The position numbers and the translations under genes are program-made. A DNA stretch of 5,832 nucleotides from Thiobacillaceae bacterium (GTDB lineage Bacteria > Pseudomonadota > Gammaproteobacteria > Burkholderiales > Thiobacillaceae): assembly GCA_024643305.1 (NCBI GenBank), contig JAHENE010000134.1, forward strand, positions 1-5,832, written 5' to 3'. The notes under the pieces were generated by a model, which did not search any database, was not told the DNA's origin, and saw nothing but the letters and a program-made list of their open reading frames with translations. Shown here one piece after another: positions 1 to 5,832 of the stretch (its first letter is position 1; each line of letters starts with the position of its first letter).

Positions 1-504
1 GTCGCTCTGGGCGCGAATCTGGGCGATGGTGTCTATTGCCTGGCGCCCCTGTTCAGCAGCCTTGCGGATAAGACCCATGCCGCCGAGTTCGCCGGCGATA
101 TAGATGCCGGGGACATTGGTCTCGAAATTGGGTTTGACGTAGGGGATATCAATGCCGCGTTTGGCAGTGCCGAATACCAGGGAAATCGCGCCCAGCGGGC
201 AGCTGGCGGCGCAGGCGCCATGACCGATGCATACCGTGGGGTTAACGAGATAGGCCTTGCCGTTGATGATGCCGAGAGTGTGCTCGGGACAGGCGCGTGT
301 GCAGGAGCCAGATCCCACGCAAATGGCGGGGTCGATAACTGGATGGAGGCTTGGTGGTTCGGTCAGTCCACTCTTGACGGATTGTTCCAGAAGGGATTTG
401 GAGCGGGCCTCGTGCTTTTTTCTTTTAAGTAGATAAATGGCCAGGACCACGACCAGCGGAGCCGCGTAGATTGACCAGAGGTACAAATCGATCGTTGAAG
501 GCAT
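1..504 (-). CDS. Membrane-anchored ferredoxin / FAD-NAD(P) oxidoreductase, 5' part (runs off the left edge)
   Basis: Open frame of 168 codons read leftwards, with no stop before position 1, so only the N-terminal part is present. Residues about 6-26 form one hydrophobic helix followed by KRKK, a cytoplasm-facing anchor. Residues 62-72 and 92-102 form two ferredoxin-like cluster motifs, C-x5-C-x3-CP, about 30 residues apart. Both lack the usual second cysteine: Ser65 and His95 stand in its place. Residues about 126-153 (FETNVPGIYIAGELGG and following) match the flavin-binding signature normally found near the C-terminus of thioredoxin-reductase-like flavoproteins; from memory of the family, an NAD(P)/FAD Rossmann domain should follow outside the window. 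Likely role: cytoplasmic electron entry or exit between NAD(P)H or ferredoxin and the membrane and periplasmic haem proteins encoded just upstream. The ATG at 504 is 21 nt after the cytochrome stop; no good Shine-Dalgarno is visible, and an in-frame GTG at 507 is an alternative start. The substrate is unknown. Confidence 0.85.
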   Translation of the reverse strand, partial: MPSTIDLYLWSIYAAPLVVVLAIYLLKRKKHEARSKSLLEQSVKSGLTEPPSLHPVIDPAICVGSGSCTRACPEHTLGIINGKAYLVNPTVCIGHGACAASCPLGAISLVFGTAKRGIDIPYVKPNFETNVPGIYIAGELGGMGLIRKAAEQGRQAIDTIAQIRAQSD

Positions 505-525
505 CACATTCGCGCAGGCATAAAC

Positions 526-1971
526 CTATCGCGCCCCATCTTTCTTAAGCACCTTGCGCCAGTCCTCGGTGACATGGCATTGATCGCAGCGCAGGTCATA
601 ACTGCCGAAATGCACGTCATCGTTCTTGTGGCAGCCATAGCAGCGCTTGTCGAACTTGGGTGATCCAAGAGGCTCCTTGTGGCAGTTATCGCATTTGACC
701 TGCCGATGTTTGCCGGTCAGAAGAAATGAGGTGTCTTGATCATGATCGAAGTGGATGGTCTTGAAATCCTTCTCGACATGGCAGGTTTCGCATTTCTGTC
801 CGTAGCGTCCCTTGTGCGCCTTTTCCATGTCGTCGCGTTCGTGGCAGGTGAAACACTTTGTTCCCATCTTGTCATGAATGTTGGCGCCGGTGTGGCAACT
901 GTCACATTTGACCTGCCTGTGCTTACCAAGGAGGGTGTACTGGGTATCGCGCTCGTGCACAAAGATACTGGGTTTGAAACCCTTCTCGTTGTGGCATGAC
1001 TCGCATTTTTCACCATATCGGCCCTTGTGTCCTTTTTTCTGATCATCCTCGGCATGACAGGAATTGCACTGTGATGAAAGTTTTTCGTGCGGGCTTGAAG
1101 GCTTGTGGCAGCTCTGGCATTTGGCTGACGCATGCTTGTCTCGCAGCTTGAACTGCGTGTCGCGGTCGTGATCAAAGCGCGCGGTCTTCCAAGATTTCTC
1201 TGTATGGCAGTTTTCGCACTTGTCTCCCAGACCGCGCTTGTGCACGTCGTCCTTGATATGGCAGTCACGGCAACGCGACGGCGTCTTCTGCCGGTAAAGG
1301 GGTTTCGTATGACAGCTTGTGCAGCGCACTTCCTGGTGCTGCCCCAACAAGCGGAAGCGGGTATCCAGGTCATGGCGGAACGTCGGCTGGTCCCACTTGG
1401 TTTCCCTGTGGCAGGACTCGCAGCGCGTGCCGAACGAGCCCTTGTGTGCATCGTCCTTGCGATGGCAACTCAGGCAATCACGCGGTGTTTTCGCAAAGCG
1501 CTGATCGATGTGGCACTTCGCACATGCAAGGTTCTCATGCGCGTCATGTAGCGAGAACTTGGTCTTCGAATGATCGAAGTGCGCTTCCTTCCAGCCGTTT
1601 TCATCATGGCAGTTGCCACACTTGTTACCAAGATTGCCCTTGTGTTTGTCATCCTTGCGGTGGCAGGACACACACTCGGAGGGCGCCTTGCGGTGTTTTG
1701 CACCCGCCTCATGGCACTTGTCGCAGGCTTTGTTTTCGTGTTTGCCCCGCAGTAGGAAATCGGTCTGTGTGTGGTCGAAATGCTTTTCGTCCATTTTCAC
1801 AATGATGGCAGTACGGCCTTTATGCTCTGTGTGGCACTCGCGGCAATTCTTTTCCTTGAGGCGGCCATGGTATCCCCGCTTGGTCCGCACATCGGCGGCA
1901 ATGGGTTTGTGGCAATCCAGGCATAGGCGCGGCTGGGCGTCACGGTCAAAGCGCACGTGACAGTTAGCGCA
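526..1971 (-). repeat. Seven tandem tri-haem modules within the 21-haem cytochrome gene
   Basis: Measured from the first cysteine of each three-haem group, modules begin at 1971, 1725, 1524, 1323, 1119, 906 and 693 (minus strand). Unit lengths are 246, 201, 201, 204, 213 and 213 nt, and the last unit ends at the stop codon. Units 5 and 6 share a 3-residue insertion (HKGRYG after the second haem), and GKHRQVKCD stands at the ends of both units 5 and 6, leading into units 6 and 7. This points to recent internal duplication at the C-terminal end. The first unit has wider haem spacing and is the most divergent. Confidence 0.9.
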
Positions 1972-2169
1972 CTTGCCTTCAAGGTCGGCGTGGTCCTTGA
2001 TCACGCTGCCAGGCATGATTGCGGATTCGATACTTGCCGCGCCTGCCGGGGTGACGAAAATCAGGACAATGTAGAGTCCAAGCGCGACACGTCCCAGTAT
2101 TTCAGTAAGCGTGCACTGCCACAACGTGAACAATCGCCGTGATAAGCAGCATGAAGAGAAAGGGGACAT
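526..2169 (-). CDS. 21-haem periplasmic cytochrome c built from seven tri-haem modules
   Basis: Predicted protein of about 547 residues with 21 CXXCH motifs, the first at residues 67-71 and the last at 528-532. They form seven groups of three. The repeating pattern is CXXCH, about 12 residues, CXXCH followed by xxDDxHKG, CXXCH, then FDHxxDTxFxLxGKHxxVxC leading into the next group. Histidines outside the motifs are abundant and can serve as distal haem ligands. An N-terminal hydrophobic stretch (about 28-41) ending in AGAA, just before Ser46, is a likely Sec signal. No membrane anchor follows, so the protein is probably a soluble periplasmic electron-transfer wire; an outer-surface site is less likely but possible. 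The start is uncertain. ATG 2169 supplies an Arg-Arg n-region but overlaps the upstream gene by 68 nt; TTG 2124 would overlap less; the open frame reaches 2250. None has a clear ribosome site, so translational coupling is likely. It lies between a di-haem-type membrane protein and an Fe-S flavoprotein, and probably takes electrons from or gives them to that pair. Confidence 0.93.
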   Translation of the reverse strand: MSPFSSCCLSRRLFTLWQCTLTEILGRVALGLYIVLIFVTPAGAASIESAIMPGSVIKDHADLEGKCANCHVRFDRDAQPRLCLDCHKPIAADVRTKRGYHGRLKEKNCRECHTEHKGRTAIIVKMDEKHFDHTQTDFLLRGKHENKACDKCHEAGAKHRKAPSECVSCHRKDDKHKGNLGNKCGNCHDENGWKEAHFDHSKTKFSLHDAHENLACAKCHIDQRFAKTPRDCLSCHRKDDAHKGSFGTRCESCHRETKWDQPTFRHDLDTRFRLLGQHQEVRCTSCHTKPLYRQKTPSRCRDCHIKDDVHKRGLGDKCENCHTEKSWKTARFDHDRDTQFKLRDKHASAKCQSCHKPSSPHEKLSSQCNSCHAEDDQKKGHKGRYGEKCESCHNEKGFKPSIFVHERDTQYTLLGKHRQVKCDSCHTGANIHDKMGTKCFTCHERDDMEKAHKGRYGQKCETCHVEKDFKTIHFDHDQDTSFLLTGKHRQVKCDNCHKEPLGSPKFDKRCYGCHKNDDVHFGSYDLRCDQCHVTEDWRKVLKKDGAR

Positions 2170-2989
2170 GCACGGCATGCCATTGCGAAAAAAGGCGCTC
2201 ATAGGTCGAAAATTGCGCAGCTGCCTGCGCCGCTCGTAAGGTCGCATCAATATTTAGGAGTACTTCATGCAAATCCGCAAGCTTGCCGTGCAAAACAGTA
2301 TGCGCCACCTTGGCATGGTCAGCCATTGTGTTGCGCGCGTTCCTGACTGCAACATGGCGCCGAATGCCCAGTGAAAGAAAGTGCAACATACGTTGCCAGC
2401 GAGCTTCGGGAACAAACAACACCAGCCGGGCGAAGTTCTCTATTTCCTGCTTGACCTCGTTTGGCAGAATCAGCGAACCCCTCACTTCCTTAAGCTTTTT
2501 GTCCACCACCTGCTGCAGATCATCGTGCGTTGTTCGCCTCCCATACAGGCCCCTGTGTATCCTGCGGTACAGGAAGCGGCCGACAATTCCACTTGCAGCC
2601 ACGAGCAGCATGCTTGAGAGCGCCACAGCCGCATTGACGGAACGAACGTGGAAGGTCGAGTGAAAAAGGACCAGAAGCGGGCCCAGTATTCCGGCGATCA
2701 TGTGAAAACGAAACCAGTAACGGAGTGGACCGAGCTGCTGCAGGATGTGAATCCTTTTGCGCAAGGGATACAGCAGGAGCGCCAGCATCAGGATGCCCCC
2801 AACAAGACCTAGGTAATAGGCGAATTCGGAGTTCGAGCTGTATGGGGCCTGATTCCGGACATACCACCCGGCCATAAGCAGAACTATTGTCAAAATGGCC
2901 GCCACGGCCGACGGGCGTAAACTTTTTTGCGATTTGGACGTTAATTGCTGTGGGTGACGCGCGGCGTCCATCGCGATATTCAGGCTCAT
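2102..2989 (-). CDS. Inner-membrane protein with two HX13H pairs, predicted di-haem b electron carrier
   Basis: A 295-residue membrane protein with five predicted helices: about 26-44, 55-76, 91-113, 120-144 and 272-295. A charged loop of about 120 residues lies between helices 4 and 5. Helix 3 carries His96 and His110, and helix 5 carries His274 and His288. Each pair is spaced HX13H, the bis-His arrangement used to stack two b haems across a membrane in ferric-reductase-like and cytochrome b proteins. His114, His271 and His293 are nearby alternatives. Positive charges after helices 2 and 4 put those loops and the long loop in the cytoplasm and the C-terminus in the periplasm. This suits transfer between the cytoplasmic Fe-S flavoprotein and the periplasmic 21-haem cytochrome of the same operon. 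ATG 2989 is preferred because AAAGGG lies 9 nt upstream; ATG 2998 and the longest frame to 3127 are alternatives, but the extra N-terminal segment looks non-coding. No close named family is recognised, and haem binding is inferred from histidine spacing. Confidence 0.88.
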   Translation of the reverse strand: MSLNIAMDAARHPQQLTSKSQKSLRPSAVAAILTIVLLMAGWYVRNQAPYSSNSEFAYYLGLVGGILMLALLLYPLRKRIHILQQLGPLRYWFRFHMIAGILGPLLVLFHSTFHVRSVNAAVALSSMLLVAASGIVGRFLYRRIHRGLYGRRTTHDDLQQVVDKKLKEVRGSLILPNEVKQEIENFARLVLFVPEARWQRMLHFLSLGIRRHVAVRNARNTMADHAKVAHTVLHGKLADLHEVLLNIDATLRAAQAAAQFSTYERLFSQWHAVHVPFLFMLLITAIVHVVAVHAY

Positions 2990-2998
2990 CGAATCCAT

Positions 2999-3004
2999 CC
3001 CTTT
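2999..3004 (-). promoter_or_regulatory. Ribosome binding site deciding the start of the membrane protein
   Basis: On the minus strand AAAGGG ends 9 nt before ATG 2989. It lies directly against the other in-frame ATG at 2998, which is too close for normal initiation, so 2989 is the better start. Confidence 0.5.
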
Positions 3005-3087
3005 CGTTTCATCAAAACACGGCCTTTTCTGGCCACATCCACCCCCGACACCCTCCACCTTACCAAGGATCTCTCTGTCCTTATTCG

Positions 3088-3104
3088 GTGTAAATATATT
3101 ACAC
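3088..3104. promoter_or_regulatory. Putative operator 1: GTGTAA-N5-TTACAC inverted repeat
   Basis: A perfect 6-bp inverted repeat with a 5-bp centre (ATATA). The right half continues as TTACACATAT, which is the reverse complement of the ATATGTGTAA half-site in the second repeat about 145 bp away. The shared half-site suggests one dimeric regulator binding both places. The site is 99 bp upstream of the leftward membrane-protein start, so it is well placed to control that operon. The regulator cannot be named from the sequence. Confidence 0.55.
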
Positions 3105-3149
3105 ATATACGTACACTGGACAGCCATCCTTTACTGTATTTTACGTCAT

Positions 3150-3170
3150 CGATATTAAAACGATATAAAA
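3150..3170. repeat. Tandem near-repeat CGATATTAAAA / CGATATAAAA
   Basis: Two adjacent copies of 11 and 10 bp differing by one T, spaced about one helical turn apart, in the middle of the AT-rich control region. This could be a curved or factor-binding element, or simple AT-rich drift. Confidence 0.4.
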
Positions 3171-3210
3171 CAATTAGTTAGAAATTATTGTATCTTGTCT
3201 GCGCCTGGAT

Positions 3211-3239
3211 TTGAAATCGCTAAAGAAAAAGTGTCTAAT
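3211..3239 (+). promoter_or_regulatory. Putative sigma70 promoter for the tetrahaem cytochrome
   Basis: TTGAAA (3211-3216) and TCTAAT (3234-3239) are separated by exactly 17 bp and match the TTGACA and TATAAT consensus at 5 of 6 positions each or close to it. Transcription would start around 3245-3248, inside the left arm of the second inverted repeat, giving a leader of about 60 nt before the ATG at 3309. Confidence 0.6.
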
Positions 3240-3272
3240 GCCGATATGTGTAAAAGATTCACACATATTGGC
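3240..3272. promoter_or_regulatory. Putative operator 2: long inverted repeat at the predicted transcription start
   Basis: Arms of 12 bp, GCCGATATGTGT (3240-3251) and ACACATATTGGC (3261-3272), pair with one G-T mismatch around a 9-nt centre. The central 17 bp (3248-3264) have the same length and half-site layout as operator 1, with TCACAC in place of TTACAC. It abuts the predicted -10 box, the classic repressor position. As RNA it would also form a hairpin at the very 5' end of the leader, so an RNA role such as transcript stability is an alternative. Confidence 0.6.
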
Positions 3273-3308
3273 GTGAGCCCTTATCCACTTCTCTAGGGAG
3301 ACAGGAAA

Positions 3309-3956
3309 ATGAAGATGAATTATTTTGTTCGCTTGGCGGCTGCTGCGAGTGGAACCTTGTTTTTGATTTCGGCTGCCGTAGCCGGCACGATTACGGGCTC
3401 AGCCCACGATTTCACCACCCAGTCCTGGTCTGGCGGGCGGATTTGCGTCGCATGCCATGCACCGCACAAGACCGACACCACCATTGCAGACGCCCCTCTG
3501 TGGAACCACGCAACTTCGACTGCTACCTATACGCTGTACAGCAGCCCAACACTGAATGCCGCCATTTCACAGCCAGGAGGCAATTCCAAGCTCTGCCTGT
3601 CTTGTCATGACGGCACAGTTGCTGTTAACAGCTTTGGCGGAGTAACCGGTTCGACCAACGTTTCTGCGGCCAACAACCTGGGGTCCAACCTCAAGTCATC
3701 CCACCCCATCGGTTTTACGTATGACGCTGCGCTTGTCACCGCGGATGGCTCGCTGCACCCAACCGGCAATTCTGCGACAATAGGTTCAGGCGGCCAGATC
3801 AGGACGGATACGATCTCTTCATTGTTGCTGTTTAACGGAAAAATGGAGTGCAGCTCGTGTCACGATGTCCACAACACCTTCACGGCACAAACGACCGCCC
3901 TGCTCAAGATGGACCCGTCGGGCAGCAAAGATTGTCTGACCTGCCACAAGAAGTAA
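3309..3956 (+). CDS. Secreted tetrahaem cytochrome c, candidate extracellular wire subunit
   Basis: A protein of 215 residues with a Sec signal (positively charged start, hydrophobic core to about residue 22, likely cleavage after AVA at 25). Four CXXCH motifs lie at 46-50, 96-100, 181-185 and 209-213, the last only two residues from the C-terminus. Additional histidines at 33 (SAHDF), 53, 67, 132 (SHPIG), 150 and 188 are candidate distal ligands. The layout of SAHDF, CHAPH, LWNH, CLSCHDGTVA, SHPIGF and a final CXTCHKK resembles small tetrahaem cytochromes of Geobacter-type bacteria, a group that includes filament-forming extracellular cytochromes (OmcE type). Assignment to that exact family is from memory and untested. 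AGGGAG ends 8 nt before ATG 3309; a second ATG at 3315 is possible. The gene is first in the rightward unit, has its own promoter, and is followed by a terminator, so it is probably made in excess over the downstream propeller and barrel. Confidence 0.93.
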   Translation: MKMNYFVRLAAAASGTLFLISAAVAGTITGSAHDFTTQSWSGGRICVACHAPHKTDTTIADAPLWNHATSTATYTLYSSPTLNAAISQPGGNSKLCLSCHDGTVAVNSFGGVTGSTNVSAANNLGSNLKSSHPIGFTYDAALVTADGSLHPTGNSATIGSGGQIRTDTISSLLLFNGKMECSSCHDVHNTFTAQTTALLKMDPSGSKDCLTCHKK

Positions 3957-3970
3957 GCTTTCTACGACCT

Positions 3971-4005
3971 GACCGGGCATCCTGCCCGGTCTTTGTTCAT
4001 TTTTG
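3971..4005 (+). terminator. Intrinsic terminator / attenuator after the tetrahaem cytochrome
   Basis: GACCGGGCA (3971-3979) and TGCCCGGTC (3983-3991) form a perfect 9-bp GC-rich stem with a 3-nt loop, followed by a T-rich stretch (TTTGTTCATTTTTG) to 4005. It starts 14 nt after the cytochrome stop. Partial read-through would feed the downstream genes at a lower level; no clear separate promoter was seen between it and 4042. Confidence 0.85.
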
Positions 4006-4041
4006 ATGTTAATGTTGGTAATCCAACTCACCGGAGGAGTG

Positions 4042-5193
4042 ATGGACTGCAGGATAAGGAGCTTGCTTGGGCTGCACAGGTTCGGAACAGCGATGGCAGC
4101 CGTGATCCTGTTGCTGGCTGGCGCAGGAGGGATCGCCCATGCAGCCGACGAAGGCAAGACGCCTGACACGCCCGCCGTCTTCTACCCGGCCCTGCCGGAC
4201 CCGCCCAGAATACAGTTACTGGCTACATTTACGGGCGAACAGGACCTGCATCCACCAACCAGCTCTTTCGCCAAGTTCATTCTTGGTGATGACGATTCCA
4301 CCCAGCAGCTGGTTCAGCCCTACGGCACGGCTTTGTTCAATGGCCGTTTGTATGTAGTAGATACCGGTGCGGCGGGCGTTGCGATTTTCGACTTCACCAA
4401 CAAGCGTTTTTCCTATTTGTCCGGTGCCCCCAACGGGCAAATGCGCAGGCCAATCAATATCCGCATCGATACGGATGGCACCAAGTACGTTACCGACACA
4501 GGCGTGGACAAGGTGTTGGTTTACGACAAGGCCGATCGTTTCGTAGCGGCCTACGGCAAGGAGGACCAGTTCCGACCGACGGATGTGGCTATCACCGCCG
4601 ACCGGCTGTACGTCACTGACGTGCAGCACCATCAAGTCCATGTGCTCGATAAACATACTGGCAAGCCTCTGTTTGTGTTTGGCAAGGCCGGCTCGGGCGA
4701 GGGCGAACTGTTTCACCCAACCAATATCGTAGTGGCCCCAGATGGCGACCTCTATGTTTCCGAAACAAGCAATTACCGCATCCAGCGCTTTACGCAGGAG
4801 GGCAAGCCGGTACGCAGCTATGGTGCTGTCGGCACGACGCCCGGCAGTTTCGCGCGGCCAAAGGGTTTGGCCATCGACCACACCGGAAGGATGTATGTGG
4901 CAGATGCCGCGTTTGAAAACGTGCAATTGTTTGATGCCAAGGGAAAGTTGCTCATGTTCTTCGGTCAGTCCGGAAGGGCGGAAGACCGGATGCACCTACC
5001 TGCCGGAGTGGGCATCGATTACGACAATGTCGAGTTGTTCAAGAAATACGCCGCCCCTAACTTTCAGATCGAGTACCTGATTCTGGTGACCAGCCAGTTC
5101 GGGCCGAACAAGGTTGACGTCTACGGATTTGGCCGCATGGCAGGAATGGAGTACCCGTCTGATGCGGATCTGGCCGTGAAAACGCCACGCTGA
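4042..5193 (+). CDS. Secreted NHL-repeat six-bladed beta-propeller protein
   Basis: A protein of 383 residues with a signal peptide (Arg-rich start, hydrophobic core about 18-31, likely cleavage after AHA at 34). Six NHL-type blades begin at about residues 93, 137, 179, 226, 273 and 320, spaced 42-47 residues. They share a PxxhxhxxxGxhYVxDxxxxxhxhFxxxGxxxxxxG-like pattern with YVVD, YVTD, YVSE and YVAD strands; the last blade is the most divergent. There is no CXXCH and no lipobox; the only cysteine is in the signal. Such propellers are protein-binding scaffolds, not enzymes by default. NHL-repeat genes occur beside extracellular cytochrome genes in Geobacter, where a role in cytochrome secretion or assembly has been proposed, and that is the likely role here. 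ATG 4042 has GGAGG 4 nt upstream; the frame opens earlier at 4003, but that start overlaps the terminator and has no ribosome site. A 23-nt gap leads to the barrel gene. Confidence 0.9.
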   Translation: MDCRIRSLLGLHRFGTAMAAVILLLAGAGGIAHAADEGKTPDTPAVFYPALPDPPRIQLLATFTGEQDLHPPTSSFAKFILGDDDSTQQLVQPYGTALFNGRLYVVDTGAAGVAIFDFTNKRFSYLSGAPNGQMRRPINIRIDTDGTKYVTDTGVDKVLVYDKADRFVAAYGKEDQFRPTDVAITADRLYVTDVQHHQVHVLDKHTGKPLFVFGKAGSGEGELFHPTNIVVAPDGDLYVSETSNYRIQRFTQEGKPVRSYGAVGTTPGSFARPKGLAIDHTGRMYVADAAFENVQLFDAKGKLLMFFGQSGRAEDRMHLPAGVGIDYDNVELFKKYAAPNFQIEYLILVTSQFGPNKVDVYGFGRMAGMEYPSDADLAVKTPR

Positions 5194-5197
5194 TGAT

Positions 5198-5208
5198 GGA
5201 GGGAGAGG
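5198..5208 (+). promoter_or_regulatory. Strong Shine-Dalgarno fixing a GTG start for the barrel protein
   Basis: GGAGGGAGAGG ends 8 nt before GTG 5217. A TAG stop lies immediately before that GTG in the same frame, so no upstream start is possible, and no ATG occurs in frame until well after the signal peptide. Confidence 0.8.
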
Positions 5209-5216
5209 ATCGATAG

Positions 5217-5832
5217 GTGCGCTCTCGAAAAGATCCCCCCCCTGTCGCCGGCTACAAAAAGGTTTGCGGAACAGGGATTCTGGCAGTATTGATATGGCAG
5301 GCCAGCCAGGCCGAGGATATTGCAGCCTTCCGGTTTACGGGTTTCGATGGCTATGTCCTGCTGGACTACCTACGCGACGGGTTAACAAGCGGGTCAGGCG
5401 GCCCCGTAAACACGGAACAGAAGCAGTCCGATCTGCGCGAAGAGGTATTCGTCATGACGCACAGCTATGTCTATCACCCGAACTTCATTTCGCTGGATAT
5501 CGGTGGGGGGCCCATCCGCCAGGACAACAGCATCGATCTTGGCGGCATCGAGACCAATGCGGGCAAGACACTGTATAACTTCACCGGTCGGGCAACCCTC
5601 CTGCGTGACAAGCCCATGCGCGGATCGCTTTTTTACGAACATCTCAACCCGACAGTCTCGGTCGCCCCCGGCGAAATCATGCTGCAGGAAAACACTCACT
5701 ACGGCTTCGATTTTTCCATGTCCGGCTCCGCACAAGGATTTCCGCTCAGTCTTGGCTACAACCACACACAAATCCAGGGGAGTGGTGCTGGCCGCGTCCT
5801 GGACGACGAGACAGACCAGATCAGTTTCAACA
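5217..5832 (+). CDS. Outer-membrane beta-barrel protein, N-terminal part (runs off the right edge)
   Basis: An open frame of 205 codons from GTG 5217 with no stop before the window ends. Residues 1-34 form a signal peptide: RSRK start, hydrophobic GTGILAVLIW, likely cleavage after ASQA. The mature part shows alternating polar and hydrophobic strands with aromatic ends and short Gly/Asp/Asn turns (for example YNFTGRATLL, RGSLFYEHL, HYGFDFSMSG, PLSLGYNHT), typical of a transmembrane beta-barrel. It has no CXXCH and no CXXC motif after the signal, so it is neither a fused Cyc2-like cytochrome-porin nor clearly MtrB-like. Placed after a tetrahaem cytochrome and an NHL propeller, it is a candidate outer-membrane pore or sheath for secreting or contacting the cytochrome. 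An 8-C run near its start may make it switchable. The exact family is not recognised, and the total length is unknown. Confidence 0.8.
   Translation, partial: MRSRKDPPPVAGYKKVCGTGILAVLIWQASQAEDIAAFRFTGFDGYVLLDYLRDGLTSGSGGPVNTEQKQSDLREEVFVMTHSYVYHPNFISLDIGGGPIRQDNSIDLGGIETNAGKTLYNFTGRATLLRDKPMRGSLFYEHLNPTVSVAPGEIMLQENTHYGFDFSMSGSAQGFPLSLGYNHTQIQGSGAGRVLDDETDQISFN
5235..5242 (+). repeat. Homopolymeric C8 tract in the 5' coding end of the barrel gene
   Basis: Eight consecutive C bases covering codons 7-9 and part of codon 10 (three Pro codons). Gain or loss of one C would shift the frame before the signal peptide ends and abolish the protein. Such tracts mediate phase variation in many surface-protein genes; here the effect is inferred. 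Confidence 0.6.

Follow-up and report, generated by a model that had tools for sequence, protein, structure and literature searches.

A divergent locus in a Thiobacillaceae draft genome joins a PCC3-type inner half to an OmcE-related outer module

We report here on a divergent gene locus of a Thiobacillaceae bacterium, analysed from a stretch of 5,832 nucleotides (the window; contig JAHENE010000134.1). The window holds six coding regions, three on each strand, and we propose, with a probability of about 0.58, that the locus to which they belong joins an inner half of the type known from PCC3, the predicted conduit of iron oxidisers, to a module related to the cytochrome OmcE, and serves to move electrons between NAD(P)H in the cytoplasm and a cytochrome filament outside the cell, likely in the outward direction. 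The leftward genes encode an Fe-S flavoprotein, a 21-haem cytochrome and an inner-membrane protein (IMP), and the rightward genes a tetrahaem cytochrome, an NHL propeller (NHL1) and the start of an outer-membrane porin. This arrangement is not a chance product, as the gene order recurs in 16 other named genome records. A preliminary description, made from the letters alone, had listed the same six components, and matches to Pfam and NCBIfam models bear it out for the c3/c7-type cytochrome repeats, doubled CXXCH motifs, NHL repeats and Fe-S domains; the IMP and the barrel fragment have no match in Pfam, NCBIfam or PHROG.

The gene list of that description was right, but the system is larger than the compact six-gene locus it envisaged. 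The window is the whole of contig C183 in a 311-contig draft genome (G000, 83% complete, 2.08 Mb), so that both of its ends are assembly ends, and the contig stops inside two coding regions. Two further contigs of G000, C232 and C171, hold the remaining parts of the flavoprotein and porin together with a second propeller (NHL2) and an undecahaem cytochrome. The flavoprotein is divided such that residues 4-172 of a 439-residue relative match C183 and residues 172-439 match C232:3-806. The barrel gene is cut after 205 codons, and the 657-residue porin of G006, a genome of the same genus, matches G000 in exactly two mutually complementary pieces: the right end of C183 matches its residues 5-189 and the beginning of C171 its residues 289-657. 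On C171 the porin remainder is followed by the second NHL propeller and then the 11-haem cytochrome. In G006 itself the ends of contigs C21 and C20 overlap exactly by 151 bases within the porin gene. Because the matches to the porin and flavoprotein relatives are split over the G000 contigs in this way, and given the C21/C20 overlap, the full locus very probably reads flavoprotein, 21-haem cytochrome and IMP, and divergently from these tetrahaem cytochrome, NHL1, porin, NHL2 and undecahaem cytochrome. The G006 sequence also has about 150 extra in-frame codons upstream of the porin (L030:1-610, on G006:C21) that are absent from the window and may reflect an assembly error or an insertion.

The two halves belong together as one conserved divergent unit. 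A scan of named genomes with an IMP alignment gave 196 relatives, the best 80 of which were kept, and the parts of their loci were mapped by tblastn at E 1e-8 with three reference PCC3 porins included; G006 and L066 are one genome, counted once as L066. The divergent layout of the window is present in 16 of the 80 inspected IMP loci (window-type loci), and thus in 17 genomes with the window. The outer genes diverge from the inner genes in 16/16, and the tetrahaem cytochrome, NHL1, the Uet-type porin (Uet being the undecahaem electron transfer cluster), the IMP and the large cytochrome are each present in all 16, which sustains the earlier view of the halves as one system. The flavoprotein is seen in 15, NHL2 in 13 and the undecahaem cytochrome in 12, with the misses at contig ends, and the complete outer set of tetrahaem, undecahaem, two NHL proteins and porin is found in 12/16, the rest being cut by contig ends. 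PCC3 porin matches are absent from all 16 (the remaining G000 sequence was not part of this search), and no second large cytochrome on the IMP strand is listed for these loci. In an IMP tree, the root of which is drawn at midpoint only, the 17 window-type rows form one side of one branch (support 100/99), and the layout maps as a single change in 100% of 200 bootstrap trees. The record labels of the 17 carriers are Thiobacillaceae, Rhodocyclaceae, Zoogloeaceae, Azonexaceae and Sterolibacteriaceae, and Thiobacillus-labelled genomes are found in both the window-type and the other IMP groups, although titles of metagenome-assembled genome (MAG) records are no proof of taxonomy. Two such titles look unreliable: the IMP tree places L080, titled 'Rhizobium sp.', as the partner of a Thiobacillus record, and the MAG L143 bears the title Bordetella parapertussis. 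The record of one carrier, Azoarcus sp. Aa7 (L091), has no MAG label.

Each half is also found without the other. The PCC3 porin is present at 35 of the 64 other IMP loci, and none of the 64 has a match to the tetrahaem protein, NHL1, NHL2 or the Uet-type porin; three have a weak 'undecahaem' match (23-25% identity) next to their large cytochromes. Twenty-six of the 29 loci lacking a PCC3 porin match have 6.4 kb or less of sequence past the IMP. Outside the order, six of seven loci annotated gene by gene (L172-L177, from other orders of the class) have the five-gene outer order with no IMP match in the ~20 kb fetched, and the seventh, L178, departs from it. An 8-haem cytochrome together with a 6- or 7-haem one lies near the outer set in four of these six, and an 8-haem one in a fifth. 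A further arrangement, in the same family of genomes as the window, is seen at L039, L040 and L043 (G029, G020 and G009), where NHL1, a 5-haem protein, porin, NHL2 and an undecahaem gene occur with no IMP match in the fetched stretch and with a 9-haem cytochrome adjoining in two of the three.

The two arms are likely co-regulated because they share a control region of about 310 bp, although the palindrome GTGTAA-N5-TTACAC is present in only two of 17 control regions, those of the window and G006. At L077:7084-9074 two open reading frames (ORFs) between the tetrahaem and IMP genes look, by eye, like a sensor kinase with its response regulator and might control both arms. The restriction of the palindromes to two genomes, and the occurrence of both halves apart elsewhere, would fit two unrelated systems that are neighbours by chance. 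We consider this highly improbable, since it is contradicted by the synteny kept in 17 genomes that carry five family labels and that show no PCC3 porin at these loci.

The left half has the features published for the inner half of PCC3. He et al. 2017 describe the PCC3 inner-membrane protein, in the text of PMC5566968, as about 300 residues long with five helices, an SGXXG motif and two WX3HX13H motifs, and the window IMP has five hydrophobic segments and the same motifs. These are kept in the window and in 80/80 relatives, a conservation that is partly built in because the scan patterns lie around the last helix. The IMP is thus predicted to be a b-type haem protein with two haems, and the earlier di-haem b reading agrees with the published motifs. 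Its structure model has a predicted local distance difference test score (pLDDT) of 86. The adjoining large cytochrome, whose ORF overlaps the end of the IMP gene and whose start codon is uncertain, has exactly 21 CXXCH motifs, as had been counted before. Spacing between haems is mostly 17, 18 or 33 residues, corresponding to tri-haem repeats, and complete relatives mostly have 18, 21, 24 or 27 haems. The mature protein has about 24 residues per haem, within the 22-39 published for PCC3 periplasmic cytochromes, and so resembles the periplasmic cytochrome of about 21 haems and low residue-to-haem ratio described for that system. At L138 (JAAXVL010000004.1) the cytochrome ORF adjoining the IMP has 2,387 residues and 89 CXXCH motifs; in 2017 the largest number known to the authors of PMC5566968, according to its text, was 85.

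The third inner component was described earlier as an Fe-S/flavin oxidoreductase. The window contains its Fe-S domain and membrane helix, but the flavin/NAD(P) domain lies outside it, on C232, and is of a thioredoxin-reductase/YpdA-like type. The flavin part lacks CXXC in 66/66 flavoproteins and a GGGDSA-type NAD(P) motif is kept in 60/66. Both Fe-S motifs lack the usual second cysteine; 65 of the 66 sequences matched the motif pattern and one had no match, and among the 65 the replaced position is Ser, Ala or Gly in 63 (Cys in two) at the first motif and His in all at the second. Three-cysteine Fe-S sites often hold [3Fe-4S] clusters.

Among 399 genomes of the order, searched at E 1e-20 for the IMP and E 1e-80 for the flavoprotein, the two proteins occur in identical sets of 21 genomes from 14 genera. 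Of the 20 besides G000, 18 have the two genes as divergent neighbours, one has them separated by 8.4 kb, and one, G351, has them on separate contigs. At the 64 IMP loci that are not window-type, the flavoprotein gene is adjacent and divergent to the IMP in 48 and at the far cluster end in three. The main text of PMC5566968 contains no 'flavo' and none of the whole words 'thioredoxin', 'ferredoxin' or 'FAD', the main text of PMC10734462 has neither 'flavoprotein' nor 'thioredoxin reductase', and the four genes listed for PCC3 in the text of PMC12442390 do not include a flavoprotein. Because it occurs in the same 21 of 399 genomes as the IMP and receives no mention in these texts, the Fe-S flavoprotein is likely an overlooked PCC3 subunit, as far as main texts, as distinct from figures and supplements, are concerned.

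The right half is an OmcE-related module of tetrahaem cytochrome, propeller, porin, propeller and undecahaem cytochrome that is close to Uet and not identical to it. The tetrahaem protein has exactly four CXXCH motifs in 215 residues, as expected for the secreted tetrahaem cytochrome proposed before, and is homologous to OmcE over its full length (E 5.2e-21 to 7tfs, which is an OmcE filament according to passages of PMC12954529; E 3e-17 to 9yuq; profile E 1.1e-29). Four histidines outside the CXXCH motifs (33, 53, 132 and 188) are kept in 17/17 tetrahaem proteins and in the N-terminal domains of 13/13 undecahaem proteins and align with OmcE histidines; bis-histidine ligation of four haems requires just this number. 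The window protein thus shares with the OmcE family its full-length homology, four c haem sites and four histidines, and is predicted to form an extracellular filament. In the OmcE filament a subunit supplies a histidine ligand to a haem of the following subunit, as set out in parts of PMC9473688 and PMC12954529. One window-type locus, L074, has three tetrahaem genes, of which two lie past the undecahaem gene.

Residues 17-216 of the undecahaem cytochrome are likewise homologous to OmcE (E 1.8e-29), such that its first four haems fall in an OmcE-like domain, and because it carries the domain of a filament subunit it is a natural candidate for the base of the filament. The propeller assignment of the preliminary description is secured by NHL repeats (PF01436). 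Its outer-membrane barrel is likewise our reading of the sequence and its relatives; the window holds the N-terminal part only, and no family model matches it.

Table 1. Coordinates of the features in the window.
Feature	Position	Strand	Remarks
Fe-S flavoprotein, N-terminal part	1..507	-	membrane helix and two three-cysteine Fe-S motifs; cut by contig end; remainder G000:C232:3-806
21-haem cytochrome ORF, PCC3-periplasmic type, tri-haem repeats	526..2250	-	21 CXXCH; true start inside ORF, uncertain
IMP, five helices, two WX3HX13H and SGXXG, predicted two-b-haem binder	2102..2998	-	ORF open up to 3127; model pLDDT 86
Divergent control region	2999..3308	.	~310 bp; palindromes GTGTAA-N5-TTACAC (at most 1 mismatch) at 3088-3104 and 3248-3264
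Secreted tetrahaem cytochrome, OmcE homologue, predicted filament subunit	3309..3956	+	match 7tfs, E 5.2e-21
NHL propeller 1	4003..5193	+	PF01436; possible ATG at 4042
Outer-membrane barrel (Uet-type porin), N-terminal part	5217..5831	+	cut by contig end; remainder G000:C171:2-1108

The gene content suggests a plausible path for the electrons. NAD(P)H would reduce the FAD of the membrane-anchored flavoprotein, whose two Fe-S sites of the three-cysteine type could relay the electrons to the pair of b haems in the IMP, the two proteins together amounting to a split version of the NADPH oxidase/ferric reductase layout. The b haems would then reduce the 21-haem cytochrome, which as a wire through the periplasm would hand electrons on to the porin-associated undecahaem cytochrome. 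On the OmcE-like domain of the latter the tetrahaem protein could polymerise into a filament; the two propellers would likely help in assembly or docking. Transfer in the opposite direction, from donors at the haem level to NAD(P)+, is uphill in redox span and runs against the membrane potential, and outward flow is favoured for this reason. The four COX1-family genes of G000 (PF00115, a family in which NO reductases may be included) indicate that it can probably respire oxygen or nitrogen oxides.

Several observations weigh against this proposal, and the first of these bear on direction. PCC3 and Uet relatives are linked to electron uptake in iron- and cathode-oxidisers, and one PCC3 IMP gene is raised in iron-oxidising cells of Sideroxydans CL21, as reported in part of PMC12442390. 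RuBisCO matches at E < 1e-100 occur in nine of the 16 window-type hosts, with weaker matches in two more and none in five, the base rate of the order not having been measured. They are also found in 23 of 34 PCC3-type hosts (34 of the 35 PCC3-porin loci being covered), and one more is a contig-end fragment. The same conduit could thus work inward, with electrons passing from Fe(II), minerals, a cathode or a partner cell through the filament to the quinone pool at the IMP, in keeping with the quinone-linked IMP model in the text of PMC5566968, and with the flavoprotein serving another coupled reaction. We regard this as plausible at odds well below even, because the IMP co-occurs tightly with a flavoprotein bearing an NAD(P) motif, for which inward transfer is uphill. 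RuBisCO is also without a match in G000 and G006, both incomplete, while six of the nine genomes of the genus, these two included, do match.

The other difficulties concern individual subunits. A fifth non-CXXCH histidine (67) is conserved in 17/17 tetrahaem proteins and is replaced by Arg in OmcE and in 13/13 undecahaem N-domains, and the AlphaFold monomer model of the tetrahaem protein has a pLDDT of 41 and is not usable. Polymerisation is not readable from a sequence, and the protein could instead be secreted as a soluble or surface-bound carrier, with the conduit otherwise as described; its full-length homology to two PDB chains, OmcE 7tfs and 9yuq, the latter from an entry of 16 chains, and the four shared histidines make this rather unlikely. 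A Foldseek search with the IMP model gives no match at E <= 0.001, and its VIA rows are mostly generic helical bundles. Lastly, the flavoprotein is not seen in the fetched flanks of 13 of the 64 other IMP loci, most with about 10 kb upstream, those genomes not having been searched further.

With outward flow to a filament as the preferred reading, we tentatively suggest a stronger and rather doubtful version, in which the flavoprotein and di-haem b protein are a quinone-independent exporter of electrons from NAD(P)H to the outside, the engine of PCC3, that was plugged into an OmcE-type nanowire in one betaproteobacterial lineage with the OmcE-like N-domain of the undecahaem cytochrome as the base. 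If so, a bacterial NADPH oxidase made up of separate proteins would connect NAD(P)H of the cytosol directly to a filament outside the cell. It is unsettled how nanowires receive electrons from the cell interior, and the window-type locus brings the two ends into a single conserved unit. The PCC3 texts leave the IMP with no cytoplasmic partner, a role for which the flavoprotein is a candidate, and the filament-subunit domain of the undecahaem cytochrome offers a possible means of anchoring a filament. The locus also shows that an electron conduit can exchange its outer half as a module and retain the inner one.

The locus shares with PCC3 (He et al. 2017, PMC5566968; PMC10734462) the IMP motifs, a periplasmic cytochrome of 18-27 haems and a flavoprotein neighbour, but the PCC3 porin and large extracellular cytochrome are not seen in any of the 16 window-type loci, the outer half being instead the five-gene OmcE-related module, and the flavoprotein gene lies downstream of the big cytochrome rather than divergent from the IMP. 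The Uet cluster consists of a tetrahaem cytochrome, a porin, two NHL propellers, an undecahaem cytochrome, tri-haem cytochromes and a peptidylprolyl isomerase (PMC10734462, section 8), and the first five of these kinds of protein are found in the window together with G000:C171, a likeness drawn from the description of Uet and not from Uet protein sequences. The three periplasmic tri-haem cytochromes and the isomerase of Uet are not seen in the complete loci inspected, and the window type has a PCC3-type inner half attached. Tri-haem genes are absent from the 16 window-type loci, for which ORFs with at least two CXXCH motifs were listed and beyond which the genomes were not searched, and L067 and L091 have no extra ORF of at least 100 residues inside the cluster and, judged by eye, no isomerase. 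The locus would also resemble NADPH oxidases and ferric reductases (FRD), if the model holds, in that two b haems would take electrons across the membrane from NAD(P)H and flavin on the cytoplasmic side, and part of PMC5566968 compares the HX13H pairs with those of FRD; however, the window IMP has no Pfam family match, and the flavin resides in a separate protein, of thioredoxin-reductase-like type, that carries Fe-S sites. From OmcE of Geobacter sulfurreducens (7tfs), a known filament with which it shares full-length homology, four CXXCH motifs and four histidines, the tetrahaem protein, a predicted filament subunit, differs in host lineage, in gene neighbourhood and in having histidine 67 in place of Arg. 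The preliminary description did not recognise the combination as a named pathway, and the literature searched contains no paper naming it, although each half is of a known kind. The portions of that literature covered treat PCC3 and Uet as separate systems and describe neither their union nor OmcE-type subunits with a PCC3 inner module; PCC3 and UetJ occur together in Group 2 and one outlier genome of PMC13386937, in the text of which the systems are not joined.

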